This document shows positions 17,909 to 44,932 of a DNA stretch of 59,169 nucleotides, one piece after another (the first letter of the stretch is position 1; every line of letters begins with the position of its first letter). Under the pieces are notes generated by a model, which worked only from the letters and a program-made list of their open reading frames with translations, was not told the DNA's origin and searched no databases. A program made the position numbers and the translations under genes. The stretch is from Desulfamplus magnetovallimortis. Lineage in GTDB: Bacteria > Desulfobacterota > Desulfobacteria > Desulfobacterales > Desulfobacteraceae. The DNA is taken from NCBI RefSeq assembly GCF_900170035.1, contig NZ_LT828541.1, positions 375,267-434,435 on the forward strand, given 5' to 3'.

Positions 17909-19165
17909 ATGAATCCACTAAAAAAGTCTTTTATTATAAAATGGTTTTGCTTTTTTGTCCCTGCCTTGTTTCTGTTTGTTTGCAGTTGCAGCGAACCATT
18001 GAAAAAAACGGATATTCATAAATATTATCCTCTTTCAAGGCTTTCCATGGAAGATTATCCCGCTTTTACGGATGATCACGGAACAAAATCACTTGAAAAA
18101 GCTCTCAGGCAGAGCATTTCTTACTATGGAAAAATTTCGCCGGAGACAAAGTTTGAATTTGGCGATGATATCTATGATGCAGTTCATATTCGTCAATCCC
18201 TTGAACATTTTCTTGATTTTATAATGATTGAGCCTTCAGAGGAGCAGCTTCAAGCGTTCCTAAAAAAGCATTATGTTGTTTATACCACAGTAAGAGAACT
18301 ATCAGATAAAGATGATAAGTCTGATTTTTCTGTAATGTTCACAGGATATTATGAACCCTCTATTGAGGGAAGCCTCATAAAGGATGATATCTATTGTTAT
18401 CCTATATACTCAAGACCGAGTGACCTTATTACTGTTAATCTCGGGCGTTTCTCATCAAAATACAAGGGAGACTCATCTTTGTCAGGTAGGGTCAATAACC
18501 GGAATGAGCTTGTCCCTTACTATACCAGGGCAGAGATTAACTCTAGGGCAGAGTTTGAGAAGGTTGCCAAGCCTGTTGTGTGGCTTAAAAGTAGAATAGA
18601 TCGTTTTTTTCTGGAGATACAGGGTTCAGGCAGGGTGATTCTCAGAGAGGGAGGCGTTATGAGGGTTCAGTATAACTCAAAAAACGGTCAGCCTTACAGA
18701 GCCATTGGCAAATATCTTGCTGACAAGGGAGAGATTCAAAAAGAGAAGATGTCAATGCAGGCAATCCGCAGGTGGCTGGAAATGCACCCTGATAGAATAG
18801 ATGATGTACTGCATTACAACCCAAGTTTTGTCTTTTTTCATGAGGGAAAGGGCGGTCCTTACGGATGCCTTGGAGTTGAGGTTACTCCCATGCGGTCAAT
18901 TGCAACTGATGTCTCCATATTTCCAAAAGGGGCACTCTGTTTTATTGAAACAACCATCCCTACGGAAGAAGAAAGCGTGACAGAAAATGTTCTTGAGTGG
19001 AAAGAGTATGCCGGTTTTGTGTTAAATCAGGATACCGGTGGTGCGATAAAAGGGGCGGGCAGGGCAGATCTTTTCTGTGGAAATGGTGCATATGCTGAAA
19101 AGGTTGCAGGGCATATGAAACAGATGGGCAGGCTCTATTTTCTGGTATTGAAGAAAGCAGAATAA
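17909..19165 (+). CDS. mltA: Membrane-bound lytic murein transglycosylase A (MltA) lipoprotein
   Basis: The 418-residue product starts directly after the moaC stop. The N-terminus (SFIIKWFCFFVPALFLFVCSCSE) is a lipoprotein signal with the lipid-carrying Cys in the VCSCS stretch. The body has the MltA domain (VMFTGYYEPSIEGS, KWLKSRIDRFFLEIQGSGRV-like segment, YNSKNGQPYRAIGKYL) and the C-terminal 3D-type motif FVLNQDTGGAIKGAGRADLFCG with the conserved Asp residues. It cleaves peptidoglycan glycan strands at the outer membrane, forming 1,6-anhydro ends. The link with moaC is likely only cotranscription. Its stop codon TAA is also the first three bases of a family C array. Confidence 0.92.
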   Translation: MNPLKKSFIIKWFCFFVPALFLFVCSCSEPLKKTDIHKYYPLSRLSMEDYPAFTDDHGTKSLEKALRQSISYYGKISPETKFEFGDDIYDAVHIRQSLEHFLDFIMIEPSEEQLQAFLKKHYVVYTTVRELSDKDDKSDFSVMFTGYYEPSIEGSLIKDDIYCYPIYSRPSDLITVNLGRFSSKYKGDSSLSGRVNNRNELVPYYTRAEINSRAEFEKVAKPVVWLKSRIDRFFLEIQGSGRVILREGGVMRVQYNSKNGQPYRAIGKYLADKGEIQKEKMSMQAIRRWLEMHPDRIDDVLHYNPSFVFFHEGKGGPYGCLGVEVTPMRSIATDVSIFPKGALCFIETTIPTEEESVTENVLEWKEYAGFVLNQDTGGAIKGAGRADLFCGNGAYAEKVAGHMKQMGRLYFLVLKKAE

Positions 19166-19359
19166 ACGGGTATGATTGCGTATCAATCGTCCCCCAAGTG
19201 TAAAAATAATAGTCATTTTCACGGTAAACAGGCATGATTGATTACGTATCAATCACCCCCAAATATAAAAATGATAGTCATTTTCACGGTAAACGGGCAT
19301 GATTGATTACGTATCAATCACCCCCAAATATAAAAATGATAGTCATTTTCACGGTAAAA
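19163..19359 (+). repeat. Family C elements, three tandem units
   Basis: Three units of about 65 bp starting at the mltA stop codon. Units two and three are nearly identical. Each contains a palindrome TGATTGAT..ATCAATCA, then CCCCCAAATATA, then AAAATGA..TCATTTT, and ends CACGGTAAA. There are no spacers between units, so this is not a CRISPR. Confidence 0.9.
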
Positions 19360-19365
19360 AAGCAG

Positions 19366-19405
19366 TCTCGACAAGGCTCAAGAGTTTATAGGTGTCGATT
19401 TTGAG
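19366..19405 (+). repeat. Family B right-end fragment
   Basis: Matches the last 40 bases of family B (GACAAGGCTCAAGAG then GGTGTCGATTTTGAG) without the core or left end. Confidence 0.65.
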
Positions 19406-19422
19406 GTTATCTGAGAGTCTTC

Positions 19423-20067
19423 CTAATCATAACTGTCAAGTTTCATCATGGCTATTTCTCTTTTGATAAGCTCCTGTTCTTTTTTATACAGCATCTCTTC
19501 TTTTTGGGCAAGAGCATCTTCCCTCTTCTTTAAATCTTTTTCCAACTTCAGAAGAGTTGTATATCTGGAATCAATGGCCTGTTTCTCCTTGACCACCTGG
19601 AGATGAGTGAGGTTGAGCCGTTCCATCTTTTTTTGTTTAAATCCAGAAGTGATAATGTGGACGATATATTCATCATCAAGATTTGTGAGTATGGACATAT
19701 CAATTCCAAGGCAGATCCCTTCTTTTACAGCAACAACAGAAGCTGTTCTGGGAATACCATCAAGAACACTCATCTCCCCGAATATTTCTCCAGGGACATT
19801 AAGTGTGGCAATTACGGTATCAGCAATAACTATGTTGTAGCTGCCTGTAACAATCCAGAATGACCATGAATCAAAGTCTCCCTCTCTTATGACAGTCTCT
19901 TCAGGTTCAAACCTGATAAGCTTTGCAATTCGTGCTTCATAGGATGTCTCCTTTCCACGGAGAAGGGTTTTGAGCTCTTCATGGGAAAGGTTTCGCAGGA
20001 TTTCAAATCTTGACAGCAGTTCAATGGTGGAGTCATTGATCAGATTTTTTTTAAGACCTTTTGCCAT
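19423..20067 (-). CDS. Cyclic nucleotide-binding domain protein with C-terminal coiled coil
   Basis: The ATG at 20067 (MAKGLKKNLINDSTIELL) follows AAGGAAC, giving 214 residues. Residues about 20-140 form a Crp-type cyclic nucleotide-binding domain with FEPEETVIREGDFDSWSFWIVTGSYNIV and the phosphate-binding cassette FGEMSVLDGIPRTASV. The remaining part is a long charged helix (LKLEKDLKKREDALAQKEEMLYKKEQELIKREIAMMK), probably a coiled coil for self-association. No helix-turn-helix follows, so it is not a Crp-type transcription factor; it may sense cAMP, cGMP or c-di-GMP or be a scaffold. It is the only gene in this stretch on the minus strand. Confidence 0.85.
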   Translation of the reverse strand: MAKGLKKNLINDSTIELLSRFEILRNLSHEELKTLLRGKETSYEARIAKLIRFEPEETVIREGDFDSWSFWIVTGSYNIVIADTVIATLNVPGEIFGEMSVLDGIPRTASVVAVKEGICLGIDMSILTNLDDEYIVHIITSGFKQKKMERLNLTHLQVVKEKQAIDSRYTTLLKLEKDLKKREDALAQKEEMLYKKEQELIKREIAMMKLDSYD

Positions 20068-20085
20068 ATATTGTTCCTTATTGTA

Positions 20086-20492
20086 CTCAAAATCGACCGT
20101 TATAACGTACATGGCGGATTACCGCCACAATCGAAAGATTGAAAGTCTTTATAAAAACAGCCACTTGTGGAGACTTTTATATAACGTACATGGCTGATGA
20201 TAGCCACAATCGAAAAGATGAAAGTCGTTTTAAAAACAGGCTGTTACCGAGACTTTCATATAACGGCCATGGCATACATATTTGCCACAACGAAGCATGA
20301 AAGTCCTTTAGAGCCTTAAAATACGGGGACTTTCTTATAAAAAACTCTTGAGCCTTGTCAATACAGTCTGAATCAGGATAACCAGGATAAAAAGGATGTT
20401 CAGGATAGATAATCCTGCCTTTCCTGTTAATCCTGGGCATTCTAATTAAGACATATTCAGCAAGCAAAAAAGCAAAAGATATCGATTTTGAG
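20086..20492 (+). repeat. Family B element split by a family F array
   Basis: CTCAAAATCGAC at 20086 is the left end of family B, and ATCGATTTTGAG ends at 20492. Between the left end and the family B interior (CTTGAGCCTTGTCAATAC, then the core palindrome at about 20369) lie the three family F units. The simplest reading is that family F entered an existing family B copy. Confidence 0.7.
20103..20340 (+). repeat. Family F two-hairpin elements, three tandem units
   Basis: Three units of about 79 bp each starting TAACG. Hairpin 1 differs in each but always pairs: TGGCGG..CCGCCA, TGGCT..AGCCA, TGGCA..TGCCA. Then CACAAYCGAA and hairpin 2: AAAGTCT..AGACTTT, TGAAAGTC..GACTTTCA, GAAAGTCC..GGACTTTC. 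Confidence 0.85.
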
Positions 20493-21028
20493 TGTTGTAT
20501 GAAATTCCGGTATCTTTCATTAGCTCTCCTTTTAATCATAGCACAGATGTTAATCGTGGCAAACGATATGAGTTAAAAAGGTGAATTTGAATTGTGTTGA
20601 TTTTATGAAGCATGATAATGATTTGTTGAATGTGGTAGCATTATGAATTGAATTCATTATAAAAAAGTGAGATTCTATCCTTGTAAACTTTTTTATTGTT
20701 GACATATTTCATTTAATTGTAGTTCACTATACGTTCATTTTTTATAGATATGAACGAGGGGTGATGAAATCTGTTTGTTAAATTTTCGACATTTTTCACA
20801 TCATCCCAAAAGCACTTTACATTTTTTAGATTGAGATTCCCTGAAAATGGGCATGGTCTTCCGGGAAATTTAAACCAGCCAATTTAAGGATGCCAAATCT
20901 TCTACTGCAATTATTAATCGCGATTTTGGCTTTTTAGACTTTTTACGAGATCATCAATTTTAATTCATCACATAAACGATGGAAAGCAGGAAGTTTAAAC
21001 TCACGAGAATTAACGAAAGGGTATCACT
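20493..21028. other. Intergenic leader region ahead of the carboxyltransferase gene, with a degenerate family A copy
   Basis: No gene is apparent. It is AT-rich up to about 20790 and contains a TTGACA at about 20699, but no -10 box at usual spacing. From about 20790 to 20894 the sequence matches a reversed, decayed family A element (CATCATCCCAAAAG near the left; AAGGATGCC at the right). The transcript start of the 21029 gene should lie in this region. A ribosome site (CGAAAGGG) precedes the ATG. Confidence 0.55.
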
Positions 21029-22582
21029 ATGGGCGTCATAGCAGACAAAATCAAGGATTTAAAGGAAAGAGAATCAAGAATCCTTGGAATGGGGGGCGAA
21101 AAAGCCCTTGAAAAGAGACGGGAAAAAGGCACTCTCAATGCCAGAGAGAGATTGAATCTTCTCTTTGATCCAGGCAGTTTCAGGGAGATTGACATGTTTG
21201 TCACCCATCGGTGCGTGAATTTCGGGATGGAGACAAAAGAGATTCCCGCAGATGGTGTGGTCACAGGACACGGGAAAGTTGATGGCCGGATTGTATTTGC
21301 CTATTCCCAGGATTTTACATCCAGGGCCGGAAGCCTTGGTGAAATGCAGGCCAAAAAGATCTGCAAAATAATGGATATGGCCATGAAAGCTGGTGCGCCT
21401 GTGGTTGGGCTTAATGATTCCGGTGGTGCAAGAATCCAGGAGGGTGTAGATGCCCTGTCAGGTTACGGAGAGATTTTTTTCAGGAATGCATCAGCTTCAG
21501 GTGTCATTCCCCAGATAACAGCCATAATGGGACCCACAGCAGGCGGTGCTGTATATTCTCCTGCCATGACAGACTGGATTTTCATGGTCAAAGATACAAG
21601 TTACATGTTTATTACCGGTCCACAGGTTATCAAGTCTGTCACAGGTGAAGAGATCTCCTTTGAAGAGCTTGGCGGTGCCATGACCCACAATGAGAAAAGC
21701 GGTGTTGCTCATTTTGCCTGCGAATCTGATCAGGATGCCCTTGAACAGATCAGGATTCTCTTGTCATATCTGCCTTCCAACAACATGGAGGATCCTCCCA
21801 TTGTCGAGACAGGAGATGATCCCCACCGTATGGATAGCGCTCTTGATCTTGTTATTCCTGATCATCCTAACCAGTCCTATGATGTAAAGGAGATTATCAC
21901 ATCCATTGTTGATAATGGTGAGTTCTTTGAACCGCATCAGTATTTTGCAAAAAATATTTTAATCTGCTTTGCAAGGATGAATGGAAGGCCCATTGGTATT
22001 ATTGCCAACCAGCCTGCACATCTGGCAGGATGCCTTGATATAAATGCCTCGGACAAGGCTACACGTTTTATCCGTTTTTGTGATGCATTCAATATCCCCA
22101 TGCTCACAATAGCTGATGTGCCGGGATATCTTCCAGGAAGTGATCAGGAGTGGGGTGGAATTATCCGTCATGGTGCAAAACTTCTGTGGTGCTATTCCGA
22201 AGCCACTGTGCCAAAGCTTCTTCTTATCACCCGCAAGGATTACGGTGGGTCATACCTTGCCATGTGCTCCAAGCATCTTGGTGCTGATATGGCCTTTGCA
22301 TGGCCAAGTGCCCAGATTGCAGTTATGGGTGCAGAAGGTGCTGCCAATGTTATCCATGCAAGGGAGATAAAAAATTCCGAAGATCCGGCAGAGACAAGAA
22401 AACAGAAAATTTCTGAGTATGAAGAGCTTTTTTCCAACCCATACTGTGCTGCAAGCAGGGGATATGTGGATGCTGTTATACGCCCTGCCGAGACCCGCTC
22501 GCGACTTTGTGACGCACTTGATGCCCTTTGCACAAAACGGGAGATGCGTCCTGCCAAAAAACATGGTAATATTCCTGTATAA
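21029..22582 (+). CDS. mmdA: Acyl-CoA carboxyltransferase, methylmalonyl-CoA type (12S/MmdA-like)
   Basis: The 517-residue product matches the carboxyltransferase subunit shared by propionyl-CoA carboxylase beta, MmdA and the transcarboxylase 12S subunit. It has the two crotonase-like halves with oxyanion motifs: VVGLNDSGGARIQEGVDALSG, GPTAGGAVYSPAM, FITGPQVIKSVTGEE, and in the second half IANQPAHLAGCLDINASDKATRFIRF, LTIADVPGYLPGSDQEWGG, MGAEGAANVI. It moves a carboxyl group between methylmalonyl-CoA and biotin. With the downstream 5S/biotin-carrier fusion and no membrane pump gene, the set fits a methylmalonyl-CoA:pyruvate transcarboxylase of the propionate pathway; propionyl-CoA carboxylase is the alternative. 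The TAA stop begins a family F element. Confidence 0.9.
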   Translation: MGVIADKIKDLKERESRILGMGGEKALEKRREKGTLNARERLNLLFDPGSFREIDMFVTHRCVNFGMETKEIPADGVVTGHGKVDGRIVFAYSQDFTSRAGSLGEMQAKKICKIMDMAMKAGAPVVGLNDSGGARIQEGVDALSGYGEIFFRNASASGVIPQITAIMGPTAGGAVYSPAMTDWIFMVKDTSYMFITGPQVIKSVTGEEISFEELGGAMTHNEKSGVAHFACESDQDALEQIRILLSYLPSNNMEDPPIVETGDDPHRMDSALDLVIPDHPNQSYDVKEIITSIVDNGEFFEPHQYFAKNILICFARMNGRPIGIIANQPAHLAGCLDINASDKATRFIRFCDAFNIPMLTIADVPGYLPGSDQEWGGIIRHGAKLLWCYSEATVPKLLLITRKDYGGSYLAMCSKHLGADMAFAWPSAQIAVMGAEGAANVIHAREIKNSEDPAETRKQKISEYEELFSNPYCAASRGYVDAVIRPAETRSRLCDALDALCTKREMRPAKKHGNIPV

Positions 22583-22659
22583 CATACATGGCAGACACAT
22601 CTGCCACAACGAAGCTTGAAAGTCCTGAGAATCCTTGAATAACTGGGACTTTCTTATAA
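22580..22659 (+). repeat. Family F two-hairpin element
   Basis: Starts with the mmdA TAA stop. Hairpin 1 is perfect (TGGCAGA..TCTGCCA); hairpin 2 is GAAAGTCC..GGGACTTTC. It ends just before the leader of the next small gene. Confidence 0.85.
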
Positions 22660-22685
22660 ATCCCTGTAAACAGCGAGAGGCTGAC

Positions 22686-22913
22686 ATGACGATTGATTCA
22701 AAAAAAATGGCTGCTATTTCATCGGCAGTCTTTACCTACATTAAAACCTGTGAAGAGGCGGCATACTTTGCTTCAGGAGCCGGAGCAGGCAAGGCAAAGG
22801 TGATTGAACCACCTGTTACAGGTACTGGAAACTATCCTAATATGTGGGGAAGCATGGGCAGAAGTGACATTATGCAGATGCGCACAATGATGCAGATGAG
22901 GACTTTCAGGTAA
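22686..22913 (+). CDS. Small protein between the two carboxyltransferase subunit genes
   Basis: From the ATG at 22686 (GAGAGG upstream) a 75-residue protein is predicted: MTIDSKKMAAISSAVFTYIK, then TCEEAAYFASGAGAGKAKVI, then a tail rich in Gly, Met and Arg (NMWGSMGRSDIMQMRTMMQ). The Ala/Ser-rich helix at the start could be membrane-associated or a docking helix, a little like the small OadG/MmdD-type subunits, but it lacks a strong transmembrane span. Its place between the 12S and 5S genes suggests a small accessory subunit of the complex. Function not established. Confidence 0.65.
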   Translation: MTIDSKKMAAISSAVFTYIKTCEEAAYFASGAGAGKAKVIEPPVTGTGNYPNMWGSMGRSDIMQMRTMMQMRTFR

Positions 22914-22990
22914 ACCCTCATTATAGCGATGGTATTATAATGATGGATGAAAGTCTTTATATATCAATATGTTATGGAGACTTTTTAATG
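22911..22990 (+). repeat. Family F-like two-hairpin element
   Basis: Starts at the stop codon of the small gene (TAAACCC). Hairpin 1 is CATTATA..TATAATG, wholly different in sequence from other copies yet fully paired; hairpin 2 is AAAGTCT..AGACTTT. After it, 22991-23142 shows nothing but the ribosome site (AGGAG) of the next gene. Confidence 0.7.
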
Positions 22991-23142
22991 AGCACTCATG
23001 GCAGAGCTTAGGCCAACTGATCATGAAAACAGAATCTGTTTTCACTTCAGAGAGACAACTGATCAGAGAGACAACTGATGAACAATCATGAACATTTAAC
23101 AGGCACTATGCCTGGCAGCATATAATTTTTAGGAGAACGTAA

Positions 23143-25197
23143 ATGAGTGAGCACGGCAAAATAAACATGTGTGAGATAAATTGTGAAAAAGAGCGGCCAA
23201 AGGCTGCCAATCCACTTAAAATTGAGGATCTTTCACTGCGGGACGGACATCAATCTCTTTTTGCCACCAGAGGCAGAACCGAGGATATGATTCCTGTTGC
23301 CGAGCGTATGGATCAGGTTGGATTCTGGGCAGTTGAGATGTGGGGCGGAGCAACTTTCGATACCATGCATCGCTATCTTAACGAAGATCCATGGGAGCGC
23401 ATCCGAACCCTTAAAAGGTACTTCAAAAAGACACCTTTTTCCATGCTGCTTCGGGGACAGAATCTTGTGGGATATCGTAACTATGCCGACGACGTTGCAA
23501 AGCTTTTTGTAAAACGTGCATCAGACAATGGCATGGATATTTTCAGGACATTTGACGCACTTAATGATTACAGAAATTTTGAAGCTGTGGTTCCGGTAAT
23601 AAAAGAGTGTGGCAAACATTTTCAGGGAAGTATTTGCTACTCACTTACTGAACCAAGGATGGGCGGTACCGTATATACTCTTGAATATTATATAAAAAAG
23701 GCAAAAGAGCTTGAGTCAATGGGTGCTGACAGTATATGCATAAAGGATATGGCCGGACTTATGGCTCCATATGATGCATACAATCTAATCAAGGCTTTAA
23801 AGGAGAGTGTGGCTCCCCCAATTCATCTGCACAGCCATTTTACTTCAGGCATGGCTCCTATGACACACCTTAAGGCTGTAGAGGCAGGAGTGGATATCCT
23901 TGATACATGTCTCTCTCCATATGCATACAGAACCTCACATCCTGCTTTGGAGCCCCTTGTCATGACTCTTGTTGGTACTGACAGGGATACAGGCTTTGAC
24001 ATTGAGCTTCTGGCATCCATCAACGAAACTCTAGAGCAGGAGATCATGCCCAAGTATCGTCACCTTCTTGATGATACCAAAATGTCTGTTATTGACATCA
24101 ATGTTCTACTTCACCAGACCCCGGGAGGTATGCTCTCCAATCTTGTGAATCAGCTTCGGGAAATGGATGCACTTGATCGTCTTGGAGACGTTTACAAAGA
24201 GCTTCCAAGGGTAAGAAAAGAGCTTGGTCAGGTGCCTCTTGTGACACCAACAAGCCAGATAGTTGGTACCCAGACAGTGAACAATGTTCTTTTTGACACC
24301 GAAGGTGAAAGATACAAAATGGTCACAGCACAGGTAAAGGATCTCTGCTACGGCCTTTATGGCAAAACCGCCATTCCCATTGATCCTGAAGTTCAGAAAC
24401 AGGCACTCAAGGGTTATGATCGCGGAAGTGATCCAATAACCTGCCGTCCGGCAGAAGTGTTAAAGCCTGAACTTGAGGCAGCAAAGGAAAAAATAGGTGA
24501 TCTCGCGGTTGATGAAGATGATCTTATCCTTTACACACTTTTCCCTGTTACAGGAAAGAAATACCTCCAGATCAAGTATGGTAAGGAGCCTGTTCCTGCT
24601 TCCATGAAAGCAATTACAATGGAAGATGTTGCCAAAGAGGCAGAGATGCTGAAAAAAGCAAGAGCTGGAGAGCTTGTTGAAAAATGCTCCTGCAAGGGTG
24701 ACATCCCTGAGAAGACAGAAGCCCTTCGTACCTTTAATGTCTTTGTTGATGGTGAGTACTTTGAGGTGGGAGTTGATGAGGTGGGTGGCGCACCTGTAAT
24801 TGCATATGCACAACCTGCACCGGCGGTTGCAGCTCCTGCTCCACAGCCGGCAGCTTCTCCTGCACCTGCTGGAGCTGTTCCGCCACCTGTGCAGGCAGCC
24901 GCAGCTCCGCCACCGCCACCCAAGCCTGCTTCAAAACCAGCACCCAAAAAAGCAGCACCAGCGCCGGCTGCTGCATCAGGTTCTGGTGCCCAGGTAAAGT
25001 CTCCAATGCCGGGCATGATTATAAAATATCTAAAAAATGTGGGTGATGCTGTTAAAAAAGGGGAGACAGTTGTAATTCTTGAAGCCATGAAGATGGAGAA
25101 TGCACTGCCTGCACCGGCTGACGGTTCCATAACAGCAATAAATTATGGTTCTGGAGACTCTGTACCAAAGGATGCCATCCTTGCAGTGGTTGAATAG
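23143..25197 (+). CDS. oadA: Carboxyltransferase 5S-type subunit fused to a biotin carrier domain (OadA/PycB family)
   Basis: The 684-residue product has an HMGL-like TIM barrel (IEDLSLRDGHQSLFATRGRT; carboxylated Lys in SICIKDMAGLM; metal-binding HLHSHFTSG), a conserved carboxylase domain to about residue 480, then an Ala/Pro linker (about 545-610) and a biotinyl domain ending the protein. The biotin site is EAMKMEN, with the modified Lys at about residue 650. It carries carboxyl groups between biotin and pyruvate/oxaloacetate. Fusing the 5S and 1.3S parts of transcarboxylase into one chain resembles OadA, but OadB/OadG pump genes are not present, so a soluble transcarboxylase with the 21029 gene is the better fit. 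AGGAG precedes the ATG. Confidence 0.9.
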   Translation: MSEHGKINMCEINCEKERPKAANPLKIEDLSLRDGHQSLFATRGRTEDMIPVAERMDQVGFWAVEMWGGATFDTMHRYLNEDPWERIRTLKRYFKKTPFSMLLRGQNLVGYRNYADDVAKLFVKRASDNGMDIFRTFDALNDYRNFEAVVPVIKECGKHFQGSICYSLTEPRMGGTVYTLEYYIKKAKELESMGADSICIKDMAGLMAPYDAYNLIKALKESVAPPIHLHSHFTSGMAPMTHLKAVEAGVDILDTCLSPYAYRTSHPALEPLVMTLVGTDRDTGFDIELLASINETLEQEIMPKYRHLLDDTKMSVIDINVLLHQTPGGMLSNLVNQLREMDALDRLGDVYKELPRVRKELGQVPLVTPTSQIVGTQTVNNVLFDTEGERYKMVTAQVKDLCYGLYGKTAIPIDPEVQKQALKGYDRGSDPITCRPAEVLKPELEAAKEKIGDLAVDEDDLILYTLFPVTGKKYLQIKYGKEPVPASMKAITMEDVAKEAEMLKKARAGELVEKCSCKGDIPEKTEALRTFNVFVDGEYFEVGVDEVGGAPVIAYAQPAPAVAAPAPQPAASPAPAGAVPPPVQAAAAPPPPPKPASKPAPKKAAPAPAAASGSGAQVKSPMPGMIIKYLKNVGDAVKKGETVVILEAMKMENALPAPADGSITAINYGSGDSVPKDAILAVVE

Positions 25198-25219
25198 ATA
25201 TCAACACTATCAATGGTTG

Positions 25220-25433
25220 TATAGTATTCCAGATAATTAATTCTTCCGTTGTAAATGTTAGGAGTATGGCACGCAGTGACCGGGGGTGATTCTATTTGGG
25301 GCCACTTCCGTAGGGGTGCCCCTTGTGGGTACCCAAGGGCAACCACAAGGGATTGCCCCTACATATTACATGGCCGACGTTAGAACCAAGCCCCAGTGAC
25401 CTTACAAGAAAGATATTTATCTGGAAATCTATA
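25220..25433 (+). mobile_element. Family D inverted-repeat element carrying a second palindrome
   Basis: Ends TATAGTATTCCAGATAATTA and TTATCTGGAAATCTATA are inverted repeats shared with copies at 42825 and 51234. Inside, 25310-25362 is another inverted repeat (GTAGGGG..CCCCTTGTGG against CCACAAGGG..CCCCTAC). No coding capacity. It fills most of the gap after the 5S-type gene. Confidence 0.7.
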
Positions 25434-25480
25434 ATTTGAAAAATATGATACGACTTTTGAAAAGTTAAAACGGTTAATAT

Positions 25481-25529
25481 AAATCCCCAAAGCTCCCTGC
25501 CATAAACGGGTGGTTTTTGGGGATTTTTT
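25481..25529 (+). terminator. Rho-independent terminator, possibly an attenuator for the next gene
   Basis: Strong stem AAATCCCCAAA..TTTGGGGATTT followed by T6. It is nearly 290 bases after the upstream stop but only 17 bases before the ATG at 25547, and it is immediately followed by that gene's ribosome site. It could end readthrough or regulate entry into the DUF6125-like/coaE operon. Confidence 0.7.
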
Positions 25530-25546
25530 ATGAACAGGGGATAACA

Positions 25547-26302: not shown

Positions 26303-27131
26303 TTTTAACACTTTGCAAAATGAATATGAAAGCAGCCGTCGTATTTTTGATATCAATGGCGGAATCGTTGATATAAGTCGTCGTATCCGTATGTACGGCA
26401 GGCCGTGTCATGTTGGTCTTACCGGTGGAGTTGCAAGCGGAAAAACCACAGTTGCAGATATGTTTCATGACCTGGGAGCGCACCTTGTTGACTTTGATAT
26501 TCTGGCAAGAGAGGTGGTACTCCCGGGTACAAAAGGACTTGCAGATGTTGTAAATGCATTTGGCAAATCAATCTTGCAGCCATGTGGAACTCTTGACCGT
26601 AAGGCTCTTTCAAAAATTGTCTTCCGGAATCCTGAAAAACGCAAAACTCTTGAAGCTATACTGCATCCAGCAATTTTTGAGCTTTTTGTCCATAAAGTGG
26701 ACGCAATTGTCCATAAAGTGGACGCAATTGTCCATAAAGTGGATGCAATTGTCCATAAAGTGGATGCAATTGTCCATAAAGTACCTGCAATTGACCATAA
26801 GGAGCCTTCGGCCTTTGTTTTTGCTGTTATTCCGCTTTTGATCGAAATGAATTTACAGCATATGTTTGATAAAATCATAGTTGTGCATGTCTCTTCCGAG
26901 ATACAGCTTCAACGCCTTATGCTCAGGGATAATATTGATGATAAAGAAGCATTGACCATAATGGCATCTCAGCTTCCCATTGATGAAAAATTAAAATATG
27001 CTGATTTTTCGGTTGATAATTCAGGCGGGCTTGAAAATAGCCGTCTGCAGGTAAAAAATATCTGGAAAGAACTTTCCTCTTCAAAATTCATGGCTGTTCA
27101 GGCACAACATGTTGTGTCTAAACAGCCATGA
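26292..27131 (+). CDS. coaE: Dephospho-CoA kinase with internal heptapeptide repeats
   Basis: The ATG at 26292 overlaps the preceding gene; an N-terminal extension of about 33 residues precedes the kinase start RPCHVGLTGGVASGKTTVADMF (Walker A GGVASGKTT). CoaE features follow: GAHLVDFDILAREVVLPGTKG, LDRKALSKIVF, LHPAIFELF, VFAVIPLLIEMNLQHMFDKIIVV. It phosphorylates the ribose 3'-OH of dephospho-CoA, the last CoA step. Between HPAIFE and VIPLLIE, residues about 133-170 are five VDAIVHK heptads, lengthening the protein to about 279 residues versus about 205 usual. The last residues and TGA stop lie inside a family C element. PanB for the same pathway is at 40267. Confidence 0.88.
   Translation: MKADFNTLQNEYESSRRIFDINGGIVDISRRIRMYGRPCHVGLTGGVASGKTTVADMFHDLGAHLVDFDILAREVVLPGTKGLADVVNAFGKSILQPCGTLDRKALSKIVFRNPEKRKTLEAILHPAIFELFVHKVDAIVHKVDAIVHKVDAIVHKVDAIVHKVPAIDHKEPSAFVFAVIPLLIEMNLQHMFDKIIVVHVSSEIQLQRLMLRDNIDDKEALTIMASQLPIDEKLKYADFSVDNSGGLENSRLQVKNIWKELSSSKFMAVQAQHVVSKQP
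26688..26792 (+). repeat. 21-bp in-frame minisatellite in coaE
   Basis: Five units of 21 bp (type gtccataaagtggacgcaat plus t), the first two identical and later ones with one to few changes, encode VHKVDAI heptads. A degenerate sixth unit follows. Confidence 0.92.
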
Positions 27132-27183
27132 TTGCGTATCAATCACCCACAAATATAAAAACGATATTCATTTTCATGGTAAA
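27119..27183 (+). repeat. Family C element overlapping the coaE 3' end
   Basis: Starts TAAACAGCCATGATTG and ends TTTTCATGGTAAA. Hairpin 1 is TGATTG..CAATCA. The element supplies the last codons and the TGA stop of coaE and ends about 10 bases before the ribosome site (AAGGAG) of the Nudix gene. Confidence 0.8.
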
Positions 27184-27209
27184 GAGTCAGAAGGAGATGG
27201 AAAAGATAA

Positions 27210-27866: not shown

Positions 27867-28041
27867 CTCAAAAACGACACAAATGAGCTTTTGAAGCTTG
27901 TCAATACTGTCTGAATCAGGATACCCAGGATAATCAGGATTTACAGGATAAAAATCTTGAGAATCCTGTAAATCCTGGTTATCCTGATTCAGATAAATAG
28001 AATAAATGTTCAAAATACAATAAAATGTCAATTTTAAAAAA
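27867..28041 (+). mobile_element. Family B MITE-like element with 7-bp target duplication
   Basis: Starts CTCAAAAACGACACA with the core palindrome (GTCTGAATCAGGATACC..GGTTATCCTGATTCAG) inside and a decayed right end. Flanked by ATAACTA (27860-27866 and 28042-28048). The right-hand duplication includes the stop codon of the minus-strand gene at 28046. Confidence 0.8.
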
Positions 28042-28045
28042 ATAA

Positions 28046-30248: not shown

Positions 30249-30435
30249 TTTATTTTAGTGCAACTATCACACTAAAGGCAATTTTATATTATTCTCTTGC
30301 CTGAAATATGGAAAAATAGTGTTATTTAAAGGTTTCATTGTCGGGTAGCAAACACCTTTAAGCTTGCAATTATATATTGCAAAGTGCAATTTTTTTATAG
30401 TATTGTTCAATTAAACAATATTCATGGAGGTTACT

Positions 30436-30527
30436 GTCTGAGTCAGGATAACCAGGATAAAAAAGATTTTCAGGATAGTTGCTTAATCCTGCCTTATCCT
30501 GTTAATCCTGGCTATCCTGATTCAGAC
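30436..30527 (+). repeat. Family B core palindrome (no outer ends)
   Basis: Starts GTCTGAGTCAGGATAACCAG and ends CTATCCTGATTCAGAC. It lies about 90 bases ahead of hsdM. Confidence 0.8.
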
Positions 30528-30617
30528 AGACTCACACAATTTAACATTGACGGAAATTAGAACCACCCCCGATTTGCAGTTTCATCAAAAAAATATAACA
30601 GATAACAGGCTTCTATA

Positions 30618-37094: not shown

Positions 37095-37188
37095 CCCTTA
37101 GATTCTTATTTCTGATTTTCGTGTTCTTTTGGCAAGAGAATCAGAAAACCTCTTTGGCTCTGGCTTGTCCAGGTTAGGAAACACATAT

Positions 37189-39036: not shown

Positions 39037-39037
39037 A

Positions 39038-39204
39038 CTCAAAGTCGACACCTATGATCTTGTAAGCTTTGTCAATACTGTCTGAATCAGGATACCCAAG
39101 ATTAACAAAGATAAGGCAGGATTATCTATCCTGAACATCCTATTCATCCTGATTCAGACAAATGCAATCACTGCTAAAAAAAGCAATAAAATGTCGATTT
39201 TGAG
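39038..39204 (+). repeat. Family B element
   Basis: Starts CTCAAAGTCGACACC two bases after the M48 stop codon and ends AATGTCGATTTTGAG. ATATAA flanks both sides with one extra base at each junction, a probable 6-7 bp target duplication. Confidence 0.8.
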
Positions 39205-39221
39205 AATATAACGTAGATTTA

Positions 39222-40130
39222 TTAATTCTTTGTTGAGTTGTCTGATGTGTATTTATTAAATATTGTTTTCATACTGGTTATAACTTTCGGGTCAAGGTTC
39301 CCCTGTTTTTTTGCAAGTTCAAGTGCAGAAAGCCCAAGCACGCTGTAAAGCATTGAAAAGTCATGGGATAGATCATCAATTTTCTTGAGGTGGTTCTCCA
39401 CAATACCAACATCTCCACGGGCAACAGGTCCTGTTAGTGCAGAAGAACTTCCTCTGTTTTTGATATTGCTAAGCGTGCCATGTATGAGTGGTTCAAGTAT
39501 CTCATATGCCTTTTTTTCTTCAAGTCCAACTTCATGCAAAAGTTGAAGTGCAAAATGTTCCAGGGTTACAAGATAATTGGATGCCACAACTGCTGCTGCA
39601 TGGTAGAGAGTCTTGGCTTTGGTGGGAATAGAAAAGGGCTTTGCACCAAGTTCCTCTATCATTTTATGGCCTGACTTAACTGCTTGTTCATCCCCTTCAA
39701 GGGAGATATTAACGCCCTTGAAGGGAGAGGGTTGACCATGTTTATAAGGGGCAAAACTCTGGAGAGGATGAATGGAGCCTGTTATTGCGCCTTGTGCCGC
39801 TGCTTTTTGAAGGATTGCAGAGGATATGGCACCGCTGCAGTGGTAAAAAATTTTACCATCAAGTCTTTTTTGACACAGGCCATCAGCAAGTTCCGAGCAG
39901 ACTGTTTCAATGAGGTTATCCGGGGTTGTAATAAATATTATATCTCCTGCCATGACAGCATCACATGGATCGTTAAAAACAGTTCCCTGGCCAGATGCCG
40001 TTGCTGTTTTTTTTGCTGATTCAGATGTTCTGCTTGCAAGTCCGGCAATCTTGTAACCTGCCAAACCGAGATAAACGGCAAGAGCTGTTCCCACCCTTCC
40101 ACAACCAATTATTGATATTTTGGGTTTCAT
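39222..40130 (-). CDS. Rossmann-like DUF2520 dehydrogenase, candidate ketopantoate reductase
   Basis: The 302-residue product starts KISIIGCGRVGTALAVYLGLAGY, a GxGxxG NAD(P)-binding fold, with ASRTSESA after the second strand. The second half is the DUF2520 helical domain: GSIHPLQSFAPYKHG, TKAKTLYHAAAVVASNYLVTLEHF, PLIHGTLSNIKNRGSSSALTGPVARGDVGIVENHL. The layout parallels ketopantoate reductase PanE and related beta-hydroxyacid dehydrogenases. It follows panB on the same strand with only a family C element between, and no panE is seen, so it may supply the NADPH reduction of ketopantoate. The start has a weak ribosome site. Confidence 0.82.
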   Translation of the reverse strand: MKPKISIIGCGRVGTALAVYLGLAGYKIAGLASRTSESAKKTATASGQGTVFNDPCDAVMAGDIIFITTPDNLIETVCSELADGLCQKRLDGKIFYHCSGAISSAILQKAAAQGAITGSIHPLQSFAPYKHGQPSPFKGVNISLEGDEQAVKSGHKMIEELGAKPFSIPTKAKTLYHAAAVVASNYLVTLEHFALQLLHEVGLEEKKAYEILEPLIHGTLSNIKNRGSSSALTGPVARGDVGIVENHLKKIDDLSHDFSMLYSVLGLSALELAKKQGNLDPKVITSMKTIFNKYTSDNSTKN

Positions 40131-40206
40131 TTTTTGCTACCATTTTTGTTCAGTTTGCTCTTTGGGCATCATGTTTTGTTGACAGATTTCCCCTCCAGCC
40201 TGTTTT

Positions 40207-40269
40207 TACCGTGAAAATGACTATCATTTTTATATTTGGGGGTGATTGATATGCAATCATGCCCGTTTA
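40207..40269 (-). repeat. Family C element between panB and the DUF2520 gene
   Basis: On the minus strand it begins with the panB stop (TAAACGGGCATGATTG) and ends TTTTCACGGTAAA. Hairpins TGCATATCA-type TGATTG..CAATCA and AAAATGA..TCATTTT as in the other copies. Confidence 0.8.
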
Positions 40270-41055
40270 CTTGTATTCATATTCAGGAGATGGAAATGTC
40301 CCGTTTTTCACATCATCAACATACTGTTTCAGGCCATTTATGGCAATCTCGTTTATATCAGCATATTTTTTGACAAATTTGGGTAATGTTCTGTTGTTAA
40401 TCCCAAGCATGTCATGGAGTACAAGGATTTGTCCGTCACATTCGGCACCAGCACCTATGCCTATGGTGGGAATGTGAAGTCTCTGTGTGATTTTGGAAGC
40501 AATTGAAGATGGAATTCCCTCCAGAACCACTGAAAACGCACCTGCTTCCTGTACTTTGATGGCATCTGCCATAAGTCTCTCCTCATCCCGCTGAACCCTG
40601 AATCCACCCATCTGATGAACAGACTGTGGTGTCAATCCAATGTGAGCCTGAACCGGAATTCCAGCGGATGTCATGGCATGAATCATATCAGAGACAGCGG
40701 CACCACCTTCAAGCTTCACAGCCGAGGCTCCAGCCTCTTTCATGAATCGTCCTGCATTATTCAGGGCCTGCTCAAGTGATGATTGATAGGACATAAACGG
40801 CATATCACCCACTACCATTGCACGGGATGTACCCCGAACAACCATTGATGTGTGGTAAATCATCTCATCCATGGTGACGGGCAGGGTTGTCTCTCTGCCC
40901 TGAACCACCATGCCCAGGGAATCTCCAACAAGTATTATATCAATACCCGATGAATCGACCATGCCGGCAAAGGGATAGTCATAGGCTGTCAGTGCAGTTA
41001 TTTTCTTTTTTTCCTGCTTCATCTTTAAAAGATATGATGTTGTTACTTTACTCAT
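40267..41055 (-). CDS. panB: 3-methyl-2-oxobutanoate hydroxymethyltransferase
   Basis: The 262-residue product is a complete Pan[38 protein letters not shown] with the metal-binding Asp residues, [43 protein letters not shown], and the catalytic Glu in [37 protein letters not shown]. It adds a one-carbon unit to 2-oxoisovalerate to make ketopantoate, the first committed step to pantothenate and CoA. The DUF2520 gene downstream may perform the next step. CoaE, later in the pathway, is at 26292. No PanC is seen. Confidence 0.95.
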
Positions 41056-41121
41056 GATTATACCCTGTGCCCCCTTTTTTTTTATATATTTTGATCATAC
41101 AAGAACCAAAGGCTCTCTTTT

Positions 41122-41289
41122 TTATGCTTTAACATCTCTTGGTATGATCTTCAACCCAAATTGTGGAACCCCGTATAATTCACCTTTGCGCTCTGCTTGC
41201 ATCTTCTGTTCAGTGCAGATGCGGATGTCGTTTCTGAATTTGACAGTATTTAGACGAAAATCAGATTGAGAAGCCTTTATTATTGACAA
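41122..41289 (-). CDS. Possible small gene or gene remnant upstream of panB
   Basis: A 55-codon minus-strand frame from a TTG at 41289 reads IIKASQSDFRLNTVKFRNDI then RICTEQKMQAERKGELYGVP and QFGLKIIPRDVKA before a stop. The composition looks coding and it lies in panB orientation, but there is no ATG and only GAAGAG as ribosome site. It could be the end of a lost gene. The rest of 41056-41423 is AT-rich; a TTGAC at about 41320 may belong to the hisS promoter. Confidence 0.3.
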   Translation of the reverse strand: MSIIKASQSDFRLNTVKFRNDIRICTEQKMQAERKGELYGVPQFGLKIIPRDVKA

Positions 41290-41423
41290 CTCTTCAGTAA
41301 TTTAATCAGAAATTTAGTTATTGACTACAGTATGGTTAGACAGGTATAAATAAAGTTTATTTTTAAAGAATCAGGAATATGGTCAAGGTTGCTGGCCGTT
41401 AAGTTAGGAGAAAAAGATAAGAG

Positions 41424-42683
41424 ATGATACAAACCATCCGAGGTTTCAGAGATATATTACCCAAAGATACTGCTCTTTGGCAACACATTGAAAAAACAGC
41501 CTCAGAGCTGTTTGAAAATTTTGGGTTTCAGGAAATACGTATTCCCATAATGGAGAAGACAGAGCTTTTTGCACGCAGCATTGGTGAGGCAACAGATATA
41601 GTTGAAAAGGAGATGTACACATTTCCGGACAGAAAAGGGGATAAACTGACCCTTAGGCCAGAAGCCACAGCATCGGTTGTCCGTTCCTATATACAGCATA
41701 AGATGCATACATCTGACCCTGTGCAGAAGCTTTATACAATAGGCCCTATGTTTAGAAGAGAGCGCCCCCAGAAGGGAAGATACCGTCAGTTTTATCAGAT
41801 TAATGCCGAGGTGTTCGGTATTGCAGCTCCTTACATTGATGCACAGCTTATACTTATTCTCAATGAACTTTTCAGGCGCCTTGGTCTTTCTGACCTTAAA
41901 GCGCATGTTAATTCACTTGGATGTCCTGCTTGCAGGCCGGATTTTCAGAAAGCACTGCTTGAGTTTCTATCTGATAAAAAAGATGAACTTTGTGAAAACT
42001 GCATAAGGAGAATGGATAAAAATCCCCTTAGAACCCTTGACTGCAAGGTGCCTAAATGCAGGGAGGCTTTAAAAGATGCACCTTCGACCCTTGGACATCT
42101 TTGCAGTGAGTGTGAAGAACATTTTGGAACTGTACAGAGGGCATTGAAACAGCAGAATGTTGAATTTGTTGTGGATAAAACCCTTGTAAGAGGGCTGGAT
42201 TATTACTCCAGAACAACCTTTGAAATTTTGACAACTGCGTTGGGAGCACAGAGTGCCGTGGCCGGCGGAGGTCGGTATGATGCACTGATTAAAGAACTTG
42301 ACGGCCCTGAAATGCCTGGAATAGGATTTGCCATAGGTTTAGACAGGCTTGCAGAAATTGTTGAGCAGCTTGAAAAAAAATATACAGCAATGCCTCCTGA
42401 TCTATTTATTATTCCTCTTGGAGATAGGGCAACCGAGTATGGATATCTGTGGTCATCTGCCTTGAGTATTGCAGGTGTAAAAACTGAGATGGACTTCAGT
42501 GGCAGGAGCCTGAAAAGCCTTATGAAAAGAGCTGATAAGCTCAATGCAGGTCATGTGCTTATTGCCGGTGACAAGGAAATTGATGAAAATGCCCTTGTTT
42601 TAAGAGACATGGCAACCAGGGAACAGCATGACATTTCAATGGATAACCCTGTAGAACAGATTGTTGCAATACTTAGAAAATAA
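41424..42683 (+). CDS. hisS: Histidyl-tRNA synthetase
   Basis: The 419-residue product matches class II HisRS: MIQTIRGFRDILPKD start, motif 1 FQEIRIPIMEKTELFARS, motif 2 KLYTIGPMFRRERPQKGRYRQFYQI, the histidine-specific ALVRGLDYYSRTTFEI (here TLVRGLDYYSRT), motif 3 GIGFAIGLDRLAEIVE, and the C-terminal anticodon domain. It loads histidine on tRNA-His. TTAGGAG precedes the ATG. Its TAA stop is part of the 8-bp target duplication (TAAAATAC) of a family A element. aspS follows in the same direction, a common hisS-aspS arrangement. Confidence 0.97.
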   Translation: MIQTIRGFRDILPKDTALWQHIEKTASELFENFGFQEIRIPIMEKTELFARSIGEATDIVEKEMYTFPDRKGDKLTLRPEATASVVRSYIQHKMHTSDPVQKLYTIGPMFRRERPQKGRYRQFYQINAEVFGIAAPYIDAQLILILNELFRRLGLSDLKAHVNSLGCPACRPDFQKALLEFLSDKKDELCENCIRRMDKNPLRTLDCKVPKCREALKDAPSTLGHLCSECEEHFGTVQRALKQQNVEFVVDKTLVRGLDYYSRTTFEILTTALGAQSAVAGGGRYDALIKELDGPEMPGIGFAIGLDRLAEIVEQLEKKYTAMPPDLFIIPLGDRATEYGYLWSSALSIAGVKTEMDFSGRSLKSLMKRADKLNAGHVLIAGDKEIDENALVLRDMATREQHDISMDNPVEQIVAILRK

Positions 42684-42688
42684 AATAC

Positions 42689-42793
42689 GGCATGCTTCAT
42701 TTACCGGTTTACACTTTCTGGGACACATGTCCATTTATCGGGAAGTTCCATCAAAAAAGTGTAAACTACTTTTGGGATGATATGAAGGATGCC
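42689..42793 (+). mobile_element. Family A MITE, copy 4
   Basis: 105 bp with ends GGCATGCTTCAT and ATGAAGGATGCC; flanks TAAAATAC (42681-42688 and 42794-42801), a perfect 8-bp duplication that includes the hisS stop codon. It separates hisS from aspS. Confidence 0.95.
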
Positions 42794-42824
42794 TAAAATA
42801 CTTACCCGAAATTTTTATAATGAC

Positions 42825-42917
42825 TATAGACTTCCAGAAAAATAGTCTTTTTATAGGGGCACGGTGTGCCGGACTCCTGCCATTCACATTGACAATTTAT
42901 TAATCTGGAATGCTATA
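42825..42917 (+). repeat. Family D inverted-repeat element, short copy
   Basis: 93 bp with ends TATAGACTTCCAGAAAAATA and TTAATCTGGAATGCTATA, matching the ends of copies at 25220 and 51234. The aspS ribosome site (TGTGAGG) lies about 15 bases downstream. Confidence 0.65.
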
Positions 42918-42948
42918 AAAATACCTTAATAATTGTGAGGAACTATAA

Positions 42949-44739
42949 GTGACAGACCAACTTGGAGATATGAGAAGAACCCACACATGTGGAGAGTTGA
43001 ATACAAAAGATGCCGGAAAAGAGACTGTGCTCATGGGATGGGTTCAACGCCGACGGGATCATGGAGGGGTTATTTTTATTGATCTCAGGGACAGATACGG
43101 TATTACCCAGATTGTATTTAATCCGGAGTTTAATGAAGGTTCCCATGAAAAAGCCCAGGTGCTCAGAAGCGAGTTTGTGATAGGTGTAAAAGGAGAGGTC
43201 AAAGCCCGCCCTGATGATATGGCCAATGAAAAAATGGAGACAGGTGCAATTGAAGTTTTTATCAATGAACTGAAAATTTTCAGCCATGCAAAGACACCTG
43301 TGTTTCAGATTGAGGATAGGGTGGAGGCTTCGGAAAGCATACGTCTTCAGTATCGTCATCTTGATCTGAGGCGCCCCCAGCTTCAGAAAAATATAATTGC
43401 CCGTCACACTGCATCACAGGCTGTAAGAAACTATCTTGACAACAAGGGCTTCCTTGATATCGAAACTCCCTTTTTGACAAAGAGCACACCCGAAGGTGCA
43501 AGGGATTATCTTGTTCCAAGCAGGGTTAATCAGGGATGTTTCTATGCCTTGCCACAATCCCCCCAGCTTTTCAAACAGATGCTTATGATCAGCGGATTTG
43601 AAAGATATTACCAGATTGTAAGATGTTTCAGGGACGAGGATTTAAGGGCAGACCGCCAGCCGGAATTTACACAGATCGACATGGAGCTCTCATTTGTAGG
43701 TGAAGATGATATAATGGAGATCACCGAGGGGCTTATAAAGGAGGTCTTTAAAAAGGTTCGTAACCTCGATATCAAGACCCCCTTTGAAAGAATAACATAT
43801 CAGGAATCCATGGATCGTTTTGGTCTTGACAGACCTGATATGCGTTTTGGCCTTGAGCTGTGTGATATCTCTGATATTGTAAAGGATGCCGGTTTCAAGG
43901 TATTTGCAAGTGTTGTTAAAAAGGGCGGACTTGTCAAGGCAATCAATGCAAAGGGATGTGCTCACTTTACCCGCAAGGAGATTGATGATCTTACAGCGTT
44001 TGCAGCCATTTACAAGGCAAGGGGCCTTGCCTGGATAAAGGTTAAGGAAGATGGCCAGTGGCAGTCTCCCATTGCAAAGTTTTTCACAGAAGATGAAAAG
44101 GCTGCAATGAAAGAGCGCCTTGATATGGAAATCGGCGATATAGTATTTTTTGTTGCGGATGACATCAAGATAACAAATGAAGCGCTTGGGCAACTGCGAA
44201 ATGAACTTGCAAGACGCCTTGAACTTATTGACAGCAATACTTACAGGTTTGTATGGGTCACCCACTTTCCACTACTTGAGTATGATGAAACTGAAAAACG
44301 ATACCAGGCACTTCACCATCCATTTACAGCTCCCCTTGAAGAGGATCTGGATAAACTGGAGTCAGACCCTCTAAGCGTCCGTTCCAGGGCATATGACATG
44401 GTTCTCAATGGTACCGAGATAGGTGGCGGCAGTATCCGTATCCACTCCACAGAGCTTCAGGAGAGGATTTTGAATCTTCTTGGTATTGGAAAAGAAGATG
44501 CCCAGGAAAAGTTTGGATTTCTCCTCAATGCCCTTTCATCAGGCACACCTCCCCACGGAGGTCTTGCTTTTGGATTTGACCGCCTTGTAATGCTTCTCTG
44601 TCAGGAAGATTCAATACGTGATGTTATTGCATTCCCAAAAACACAGAAAGCAACATGTCTTCTTACAGATGCTCCATCTCCTGCTGCTGTTTCCCAGTTA
44701 CAGGAGCTGGCCATAAAGGTCTCCAAAATTGATGAATAA
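42949..44739 (+). CDS. aspS: Aspartyl-tRNA synthetase (bacterial type)
   Basis: The 596-residue product starts with GTG at 42949 after GAGG. It has the OB-fold anticodon domain ([42 protein letters not shown]), class II motif 2 [23 protein letters not shown], the bacterial GAD insertion domain (about 280-410), and motif 3 [14 protein letters not shown]. It loads aspartate; whether it is discriminating or also charges tRNA-Asn cannot be told. It is the second gene of the hisS-aspS pair, now split by two mobile elements. Its TAA stop starts a family C array. Confidence 0.97.
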
Positions 44740-44932
44740 ACAGACATGATTGATTACATATCAATCACCCCCAAATATAAAAATGATAGTCATTTTCACG
44801 GTAAACGGTCATGGGTGTCATCCAGCCACCCCCGAATATGAAAATATGTATCCATTTTCACGGTAAACAGGCATGATTGATTACGTATCAATCGCCCCCA
44901 AATATAAAAATGATAGTCATTTTCACGGTAAA
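44737..44932 (+). repeat. Family C elements, three tandem units
   Basis: Starts at the aspS stop codon (TAAACAGACATGATTG). Units one and three have TGATTGAT..ATCAATC-type hairpins; the middle unit is of the other subtype (CATGGGTGTCATCCAGCCACC and TGAAAAT..ATTTTCA). The last unit ends a few bases before the xpt ribosome site. Confidence 0.88.

Follow-up and report, generated by a model that had tools for sequence, protein, structure and literature searches.

In the available text of two accounts of the IS200/IS605 insertion sequences (IS), the enzyme binds hairpins and inserts the element 3' of a tetranucleotide that is retained at the left flank (PMC5934647, PMC6006769). For the small BOX repeats of pneumococci, the accessible part of one study reports 36 cases in which a BOX copy provides the stop codon of a gene (PMC3049150). 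Here we describe two families of small repeats, C and F, from a stretch of 59,169 nucleotides of Desulfamplus magnetovallimortis (contig NZ_LT828541.1, positions 375,267 to 434,435; this whole stretch is called the window) and from further parts of the same genome. They are probably families of very small non-autonomous mobile elements that are read through their hairpins and insert at TAA(A), and no earlier description of them was found in the open-licence literature searched. The spread of many small bacterial hairpin repeats lacks an explanation. In the present case, one can read the empty site, the termini, the target, and the conserved shape alike, and the identity of the enzyme that moves such a repeat thereby becomes open to direct testing.

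Two Related Families with Two Direct Hairpins

Elements of family C are about 65 nt long and those of family F about 80 nt, and the two families are related, each having two direct hairpins in the common layout TAA(A)C, CATGG, hairpin 1, spacer, hairpin 2, and TAA(A). The consensus of family C is TAAAC-N3-CA[TG..CA]-CCCC..-(T/C)A[T(G/A)AAAAT..ATTTTCA]-CGG-TAAA, and that of family F is TAAC-N3-CATGGC..GCCAC-AA.CGAA..ATGAAAGTC..GACTTTC-N-TATAA(A). The genome comprises 6.68 Mb in 108 contigs, and 1.63 Mb of it, about one-quarter, was surveyed in five blocks that include the window; array and copy counts below refer to this survey unless stated otherwise. Family C gave 222 profile hits, from which 187 full copies were kept and the partial ones dropped, and the full copies form 130 arrays, of which 91 have a single copy and 39 have two to four. 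With 175 copies of family F in 122 arrays, the density is ~110 full copies per Mb for either family. Genome-wide, there were 343 matches to an exact C pattern and 170 to a strict F pattern, with 0 to the reversed form of each. A covariance model (CM) scan of the whole genome, in which the best 150 of 6657 candidates were scored, matched all 150, which makes this number a lower bound. An earlier note on this DNA, made from its letters alone, had placed two-hairpin elements at particular sites of the window, and reading, profile searches, and the genome-wide counts against reversed patterns all confirm them.

In family C, hairpin 1 is preceded by CA and opens with TG in 137 of 153 copies, and hairpin 2 is preceded by (T/C)A and opens with T(A/G) in 107 of 132 distinct copies. 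The feet of both C hairpins are alike in most copies (A before, a T-G or T-A start, and a CA end), and those of F are looser. Head-to-tail arrays and partial copies occur, and up to 8 identical copies are found among 153 complete C elements. On reading, the ends TAAAC...CGGTAAA are not inverted, and no terminal inverted repeats were found in C or F. Plasmids and phages searched at the DNA level gave no match to the elements; a pattern match in a viral contig was taken as chance, as no such hairpins were seen there on reading.

Empty Sites and Array Junctions

The two flanks of each intergenic array were joined with one TAAA and searched against the same 1.63 Mb. Gene boundaries came from a simple in-house gene caller, and arrays within called genes (five of the 130 C arrays) were excluded, leaving 125 intergenic C arrays in the counts. 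A spanning match was obtained for 33 C arrays, and nine of these had clean junctions, four being self-matches and five lying in repeats of which empty copies also exist. In G000 coordinates, the five lie at C1:38597 (one empty copy, a neighboring tandem unit), C1:98205 (19 empty copies), C3:111752 (21), C2:182348 (19), and C2:308710 (6). The junctions show at most one mismatch and no gap, and TAAA stands once when the site is empty and at both ends when it is filled. Repeats resembling miniature inverted-repeat transposable elements (MITEs) are the hosts of three of the five arrays, at two or three positions, so that the events number few but are distinct. One larger MITE-like repeat with inverted ends (GGCATCCTTCATAT..AAAAGTAGTTTACACTTTT) occurs in the window at 4356-4474, 10609-10727, 42683-42800, 50884-51054, and 57002-57119, and its copies elsewhere in the genome host C insertions.

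For family F, 45 arrays had a spanning match and 17 passed with TAA as the shared part, 13 of them self-matches. A clean empty site is present at C3:178281 (G000), where TAA stands once and there are 15 empty copies; with TATAA as the shared part of F sites, 0 junctions passed. Another F element, at C2:6786, lies inside a GTCTGAATCAGGATAACCAGGAT-type repeat with 123 spanning matches. Abundant repeats around GTCTGAATCAGGATAACCAGGAT are found in the window at 16709-16800, 20362-20453, 27905-28004, 30432-30537, and 52001-52092.

Adjacent copies have a common TAAA at 52 of 57 C array junctions, and arrays mix subfamilies, as at 44737-44932 and 52148-52274. Over 76 arrays, the ends TAAAC and CGGTAAA are near invariant, and the flanks are mostly unrelated. 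C was absent from all seven orthologous gene ends compared, which are those of mltA in four genomes, of panB in two, and of aspS in one; among these genomes, only G001 and G002 carry C in number. The mmdA end was compared in eight genomes, none of which has the F copy of the window; in G008, inspection by eye showed a degenerate F-looking sequence on the same mmdA stop and, on that of the gene after it, a clearer one, and the F profile matched neither. In nER1bin2 records, a sister metagenome-assembled genome (MAG) shows a subfamily of its own, seven identical copies with a TGATTGACATGTATCAATCA hairpin. The moaC and mltA orthologues of G002 have a C element between them (L119:5969-6033), at a place where the window has none. 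Taken together, these data make it highly probable that the elements arose by mobile insertion.

Hairpin Shape, Strand, and the Mobilizing Enzyme

The best 150 of 157 CM matches, from this genome and related loci, were aligned (130 distinct rows), and 90.3% of the cells pair. Double-changed cells number 178, as against a shuffled mean of 53.7 (0 of 500 shuffles as high) and 7 to 51 in slid controls, but the number of pairs with a double change, eight of 13, was equalled by 53 of 500 shuffles. The strongest pairs are columns 13-66 (GC 59, AU 53), 14-65 (CG 53, UA 52), and 15-64 (UA 75, CG 25), the strongest in hairpin 2 is 85-125 (AU 94, GC 23), and pair 84-126 is A-C in 54 rows and G-C in 64. 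Because the structure guided the alignment, in which few subfamilies are represented, an alignment-free test matters. In this test, 67.6% of the inner pairs of hairpin 1 were Watson-Crick pairs (47 distinct arm pairs), with at most 56.4% in 2000 shuffles, and hairpin 2 gave 64.2% against a shuffled mean of 59.3% and a maximum of 66.7%, its arms being possibly misplaced by the pattern. Covariation is strong for hairpin 1 and weak for hairpin 2; the compensatory stem changes that the earlier note had claimed are therefore clear by both tests for the first hairpin but not clearly above shuffles, alignment-free, for the second. The arms that it had quoted are present, except that at 19163 they are TGATTG/CAATCG, whereas TGATTGAT/ATCAATCA belongs to 19225, 19290, and 44737.

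Distant copies pair, by reading, with other letters (TGATC..GATCA and TGAAAAT..ATTTTCA in G178, TGGCAG..CTGCCA in G272, and TGAAAA..TTTTCA in G293), and their folds are mixed, with z values of -4.5 for L053 (hairpin 1 in a shifted register), -1.9 for L057, and -0.4 for the G178 copy. Folded as RNA, five of seven window copies gave z values of -2.0 to -4.1, and two (-0.35 and -0.57) were no better than shuffles. Single-stranded DNA folds of both strands beat shuffles in all three copies tested.

Family C also has a strand preference. In 83 of 125 arrays, TAAAC stands on the strand that is locally richer in C, compared with 0.496 for empty TAAA sites (p = 2e-4); the count is 77 of 117 outside the window and 27/37, 21/37, 13/18, 14/21, and 8/12 in the five blocks. 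If the G-rich strand is the lagging template, the active C strand would be the complement, with TTTA at both ends, which we regard as a lead and not as proof. With regard to the lagging-strand preference of IS200/IS605 derivatives, C is thus biased with TAAAC on the opposite strand, and F is unbiased. In G248, the GC-skew values of 20 samples were too noisy for such a comparison.

On the whole, the hairpins seem to be kept for mobility and not for an RNA function. A transposase supplied in trans would recognize them, probably as folded single-stranded DNA, and would join the element beside TAA(A) in a manner similar to that of IS200/IS605. The stems would then covary because the enzyme reads their shape. 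That this movement is single-strand transposition of the HUH/Y1 type we propose tentatively, as one candidate mechanism.

Searches for such an enzyme in the genus and the surveyed DNA bear on this proposal. Transposases of the Y1 (PF01797) or Y2 (PF04986) type were considered as the partner and set aside, since their presence across the genus, where most genomes are incomplete, does not track C and no C lies at the 24 loci searched. Composites with C ends around a gene were likewise rejected: there are five candidate spans, three with genes, and the four proteins inspected look by sequence like ordinary host proteins; no composite with a recognizable transposase was found in the 1.63 Mb. A marginal partial F match (E 0.018) lies at L031:1256-1299, ~200 bp ahead of the complete IS200-type transposase of this genome, and the ends of the complete IS200-like element in L031 are, on reading, unlike C.

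Several observations weigh against the account given above. At E up to 0.1, C was not matched in any of the 24 transposase loci (18 of 25 Y1 and six of 12 Y2 places in the genus). Three sister genomes that lack C in number (G003, G004, and G007) have Y1 genes, and the C-bearing genome G002 yielded none, but is 63% complete. The 27 genes situated between two elements resemble host genes, as judged from their first 90 residues. Clean junctions were lacking in 24 of the 33 spanning C arrays, and four more matched only themselves; self-matches account for 13 of the 17 passing F arrays, and two are based on one copy each, while at C2:6786 the F array and 56 empty relatives differ at a single base, which lies in the target. 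Family F is without strand bias (66/120, p = 0.32), and the bias of C is contrary to what one would expect if its TAAAC strand were read simply in the manner of IS608. Hairpin 2 lies only 3 nt from TAAA, unlike the ends of IS200/IS605. Starts on stop codons, described below, are more frequent than the target accounts for, so that some positional function may exist.

Mobility might instead depend on another enzyme, a tyrosine recombinase or a nuclease of unrecognized type, acting on double strands with TAA(A) as the crossover and with the hairpins as protein-binding sites only. Such an enzyme would be compatible with the invariant TAA(A) at both ends, which suits a crossover as well as a target, and also with the lack of terminal inverted repeats, the absence of a Y1 partner at the loci searched, and the unbiased strands of F. 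We nevertheless hold it to be rather unlikely, as the strand bias of C relative to GC skew and the pairing kept across stems of different sequence are better suited to a folded single strand.

Stop Codons, Gene Orientation, and a Role in RNA

Exact starts on the stop codon of the upstream gene were found for 14 of 125 intergenic C arrays and eight of 120 F arrays. TAAA at stop codons is used in 6.5% of cases (14 used, 203 empty), compared with 1.2 to 2.6% in other non-coding classes (p = 5e-5), and the comparison with sites within 60 nt downstream gives p = 0.018. Because the window had suggested the idea, the test was repeated without it, and 10 of 117 C arrays started on a stop against 3.1% expected from target supply (p = 0.004), so that the enrichment predicted for copies across the genome holds outside the DNA that had suggested it. 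Neither TAAA supply nor flanking-base preference (a model for which 21 of 111 heads were dropped) is the whole cause, as they lead to an expectation of 3.1% or 3.4%, whereas 14 of 125 were observed. Target choice predicts ~4 of 125 stop starts, and the rest therefore needs another cause. If the elements are mobile, stop codons would be hit because TAA(A) is the target, and they may be over-represented further because insertion there leaves the protein whole.

The earlier note had interpreted the elements as transcribed intergenic RNA structures that perhaps set mRNA ends, stability, or translation coupling. On this view, selection would keep them for that role, and their placement at stop codons would serve it. 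Stem covariation is in keeping with such a role, as are stop starts about 2.9-fold over target supply outside the window and the RNA folds of five of the seven window copies, although the remaining two fold no better than shuffles. When the stop starts are removed, orientation to codirectional flanking genes is 44 same and 32 opposite (p = 0.21), and array density is 11 in 39.1 kb of convergent, 27 in 65.0 kb of divergent, and 87 in 171.3 kb of codirectional sequence. Convergent 3' ends are thus not enriched and orientation is otherwise unbiased, which argues against a transcript-end role as the cause. The mismatches comprise 60 G-T cells and 97 A-C cells, or 58 and 43 when a single column with A-C in 54 rows is left out, a pattern with no sign of RNA wobble. 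Rfam gave 0 matches above the gathering score in the window, and a relaxed search of 16800-23100 gave one sub-threshold match. The clean empty sites and the seven orthologous gene ends without C point in the same direction, and a transcribed RNA function as the cause of the elements is, in our judgment, improbable, although they may possibly have an incidental effect on transcripts. As this case shows, transposition can give rise to both covarying stems and positions at stop codons, two features commonly read as signs of a functional RNA.

Other Routes of Spread

Being small, palindromic, intergenic, and present in hundreds of copies, C and F could be taken for ordinary repetitive extragenic palindromic (REP) elements moved by REP-associated tyrosine transposases (RAYT), and RAYT-like Y1 genes or remnants do occur in this genome. 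That is very unlikely, given the two direct hairpins, whose feet bear neither a GT[AG]G nor a CGTC tag, and the absence of a C match at the four Y1 loci of the genome. The RAYT-like Y1 genes lie at G000:C8:1894, G000:C10:41917, and G000:C10:51602; in the two loci that were read (L032 and L034), the gene is preceded by GGGGTCGGGCC-type sequence and followed by GGCCCGACCCC, and the third locus has an internal stop. Old debris spread via segmental duplication and unequal crossing-over could yield head-to-tail arrays and partial copies, but with mostly unrelated flanks, precise junctions in unrelated hosts, empty sites, and subfamilies mixed in the arrays at 44737-44932 and 52148-52274, it is hardly credible as the main route.

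Relatives in Other Genomes

Among the matches listed in named records, the most similar elements are mostly from Desulfamplus MAGs. A DNA query found C in five of 21 genomes, all of the same genus (this one, G001, G002, G006, and G008), and the exact C pattern was present in eight of 389 genomes of the class (this one, G001, G002, G008, G178, G293, G030, and G272), the G030 match having a poor hairpin 1. The strict F pattern was confined to this genome among 395 of the phylum, a draw that held no other genome of the genus, and the F profile detected relatives in loci of G001, G008, and others. With at most 150 candidates scored per genome, the CM matched 87 times in G248, 23 in G178, 22 in G293, three each in G272 and G387, and once in G030; among sister genomes it matched twice in G003, once in G004, and 0 times in G007.

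Relatives of the elements are thus present in other Desulfobacterales, including G248, a single-contig genome of 8.03 Mb. Its C copies are mostly ~95 nt long, with an inverted partial hairpin 1 arm repeated inside hairpin 2 (e.g. L241:321-415), and ~8 of the 18 hits that a G248 profile gave in 400 kb were taken as real and the rest as other repeats. One record with the title Magnetococcales has a single candidate copy, as have two records from another deltaproteobacterium. The former (L053) has a CM match with E 9e-5, in which hairpin 2 folds as expected and hairpin 1 in a shifted register; its pattern match may be chance, as the scan covered 257 billion bases. It is conceivable, though doubtful, that these elements represent a minimal transposable class of 57 to 95 nt, with two direct hairpins on a common foot, TAA(A) as both target and terminus, a transposase of unrecognized type, and a real stop-codon preference, present in several bacterial families of the Desulfobacterales and possibly beyond.

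Copies in the Window and Their Neighbors

Window copies were located by reading of 16700-24000 or by profile search. C elements are found on the minus strand at 2289..2358 (with a long hairpin 1) and on the plus strand at 7791..7856, both by profile and CM match; the latter is one of eight identical copies in the 1.63 Mb. The plus-strand C element at 16864..16930 (reading and profile) ends 31 nt ahead of a MoaE-like gene, and the distance to the next called gene is 27 nt from the element ending at 27183 and 17 nt from that ending at 44932. Starts exactly on a TAA stop, as claimed earlier for six genes, were seen at every one of them. Three plus-strand C elements with a common TAAA (19163..19358; reading and profile) begin on the mltA stop, and a plus-strand F element (22580..22659; reading and profile) begins on that of an mmdA-type carboxyltransferase gene. 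A hybrid-looking plus-strand element at 22911..22986, with a C-like head (TAAAC) and an F-like hairpin 2, begins at the stop codon of the gene whose end is at 22913; it was identified by reading, with a partial F profile match at 22940-22986. On the minus strand, a C element at 40205..40269 supplies the panB stop (TAA at 40269), and two C elements of two subfamilies with a common TAAA (52148..52274) supply that of a histidine kinase (TAA at 52274). Three plus-strand C elements of two subfamilies, also with a common TAAA (44737..44932), begin on the aspS stop; these last three arrays were found by profile. The coaE frame enters a plus-strand C element (27119..27183; reading and profile) and ends at its TGA (27129-27131), so that the element does provide the stop, as had been proposed. 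Three tandem F elements lie on the plus strand at 20103..20340 (reading and profile).

Pfam fits the names of the flanking genes tested, with aspS a class II D/K/N synthetase with a GAD domain, and supports xpt only as a phosphoribosyltransferase. After the mmdA-type gene, a 74-residue protein (22689-22910) is without a Pfam match, and a similar small open reading frame was seen by eye in six of eight sister genomes. The coaE frame, which ends in the C element, also contains a 21-bp tandem repeat (26665-26800), and repeats of an 18-bp unit (13590-13798) lie inside the long open reading frame at 13497-16664.

Comparison with Known Systems

Bacterial MITEs such as RUP and Correia are, like C and F, non-autonomous, and the available part of one account gives most MITEs a TA motif at their ends (PMC2229807). 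Compared with the MITEs described there, C and F have an end sequence fixed as TAA(A), and the terminal inverted repeats of MITEs of the DDE type were not found on reading. The pneumococcal BOX, RUP, and SPRITE repeats are likewise small, interspersed, and structured, and are thought to be parasitic; in the available text, the terminal inverted repeats of BOX and RUP pair with each other in the fold, and no arrays sharing TAA(A), such as those of C and F, are described (PMC3049150).

REP sequences and REPINs with RAYT, which are GTAG- and CGTC-tagged palindromes, resemble C and F in being tiny, mostly intergenic, and present in many copies, and CGTC repeats are also described without a known transposase (PMC3733652, available part). 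C and F differ from these as described there in having two direct hairpins, no GTAG or CGTC tag, and a terminal TAA(A) common within arrays. At the hairpin foot, where the accessible text places GT[AG]G or CGTC (PMC6006769, PMC3733652), the C copies mostly have CA before TG and (T/C)A before T(A/G), and no Y1 gene flanked by C was found at the 18 Y1 loci searched of 25 in the genus (E up to 0.1).

The IS200/IS605 elements, as the available parts of PMC5934647 and PMC6006769 describe IS608 and ISDra2, have, like C and F, a hairpin near each end and a fixed short flank sequence, and their hairpins are read as single strands. C and F have a hairpin near each end without terminal inverted repeats, and five C arrays and one F array keep a fixed short sequence at the flank with no variable target duplication. 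They differ in that TAA(A) marks either end, whereas IS608 in the same accounts has TTAC and TCAA, and in their length of 65 to 80 nt in all, with no transposase gene inside and no guide sequence demonstrated. Because no autonomous relative, that is, a tnpA element with matching ends, was found in the 1.63 Mb of DNA examined (about one-quarter of the genome), we class C and F not as members of IS200/IS605 but as elements that would work in the same manner.

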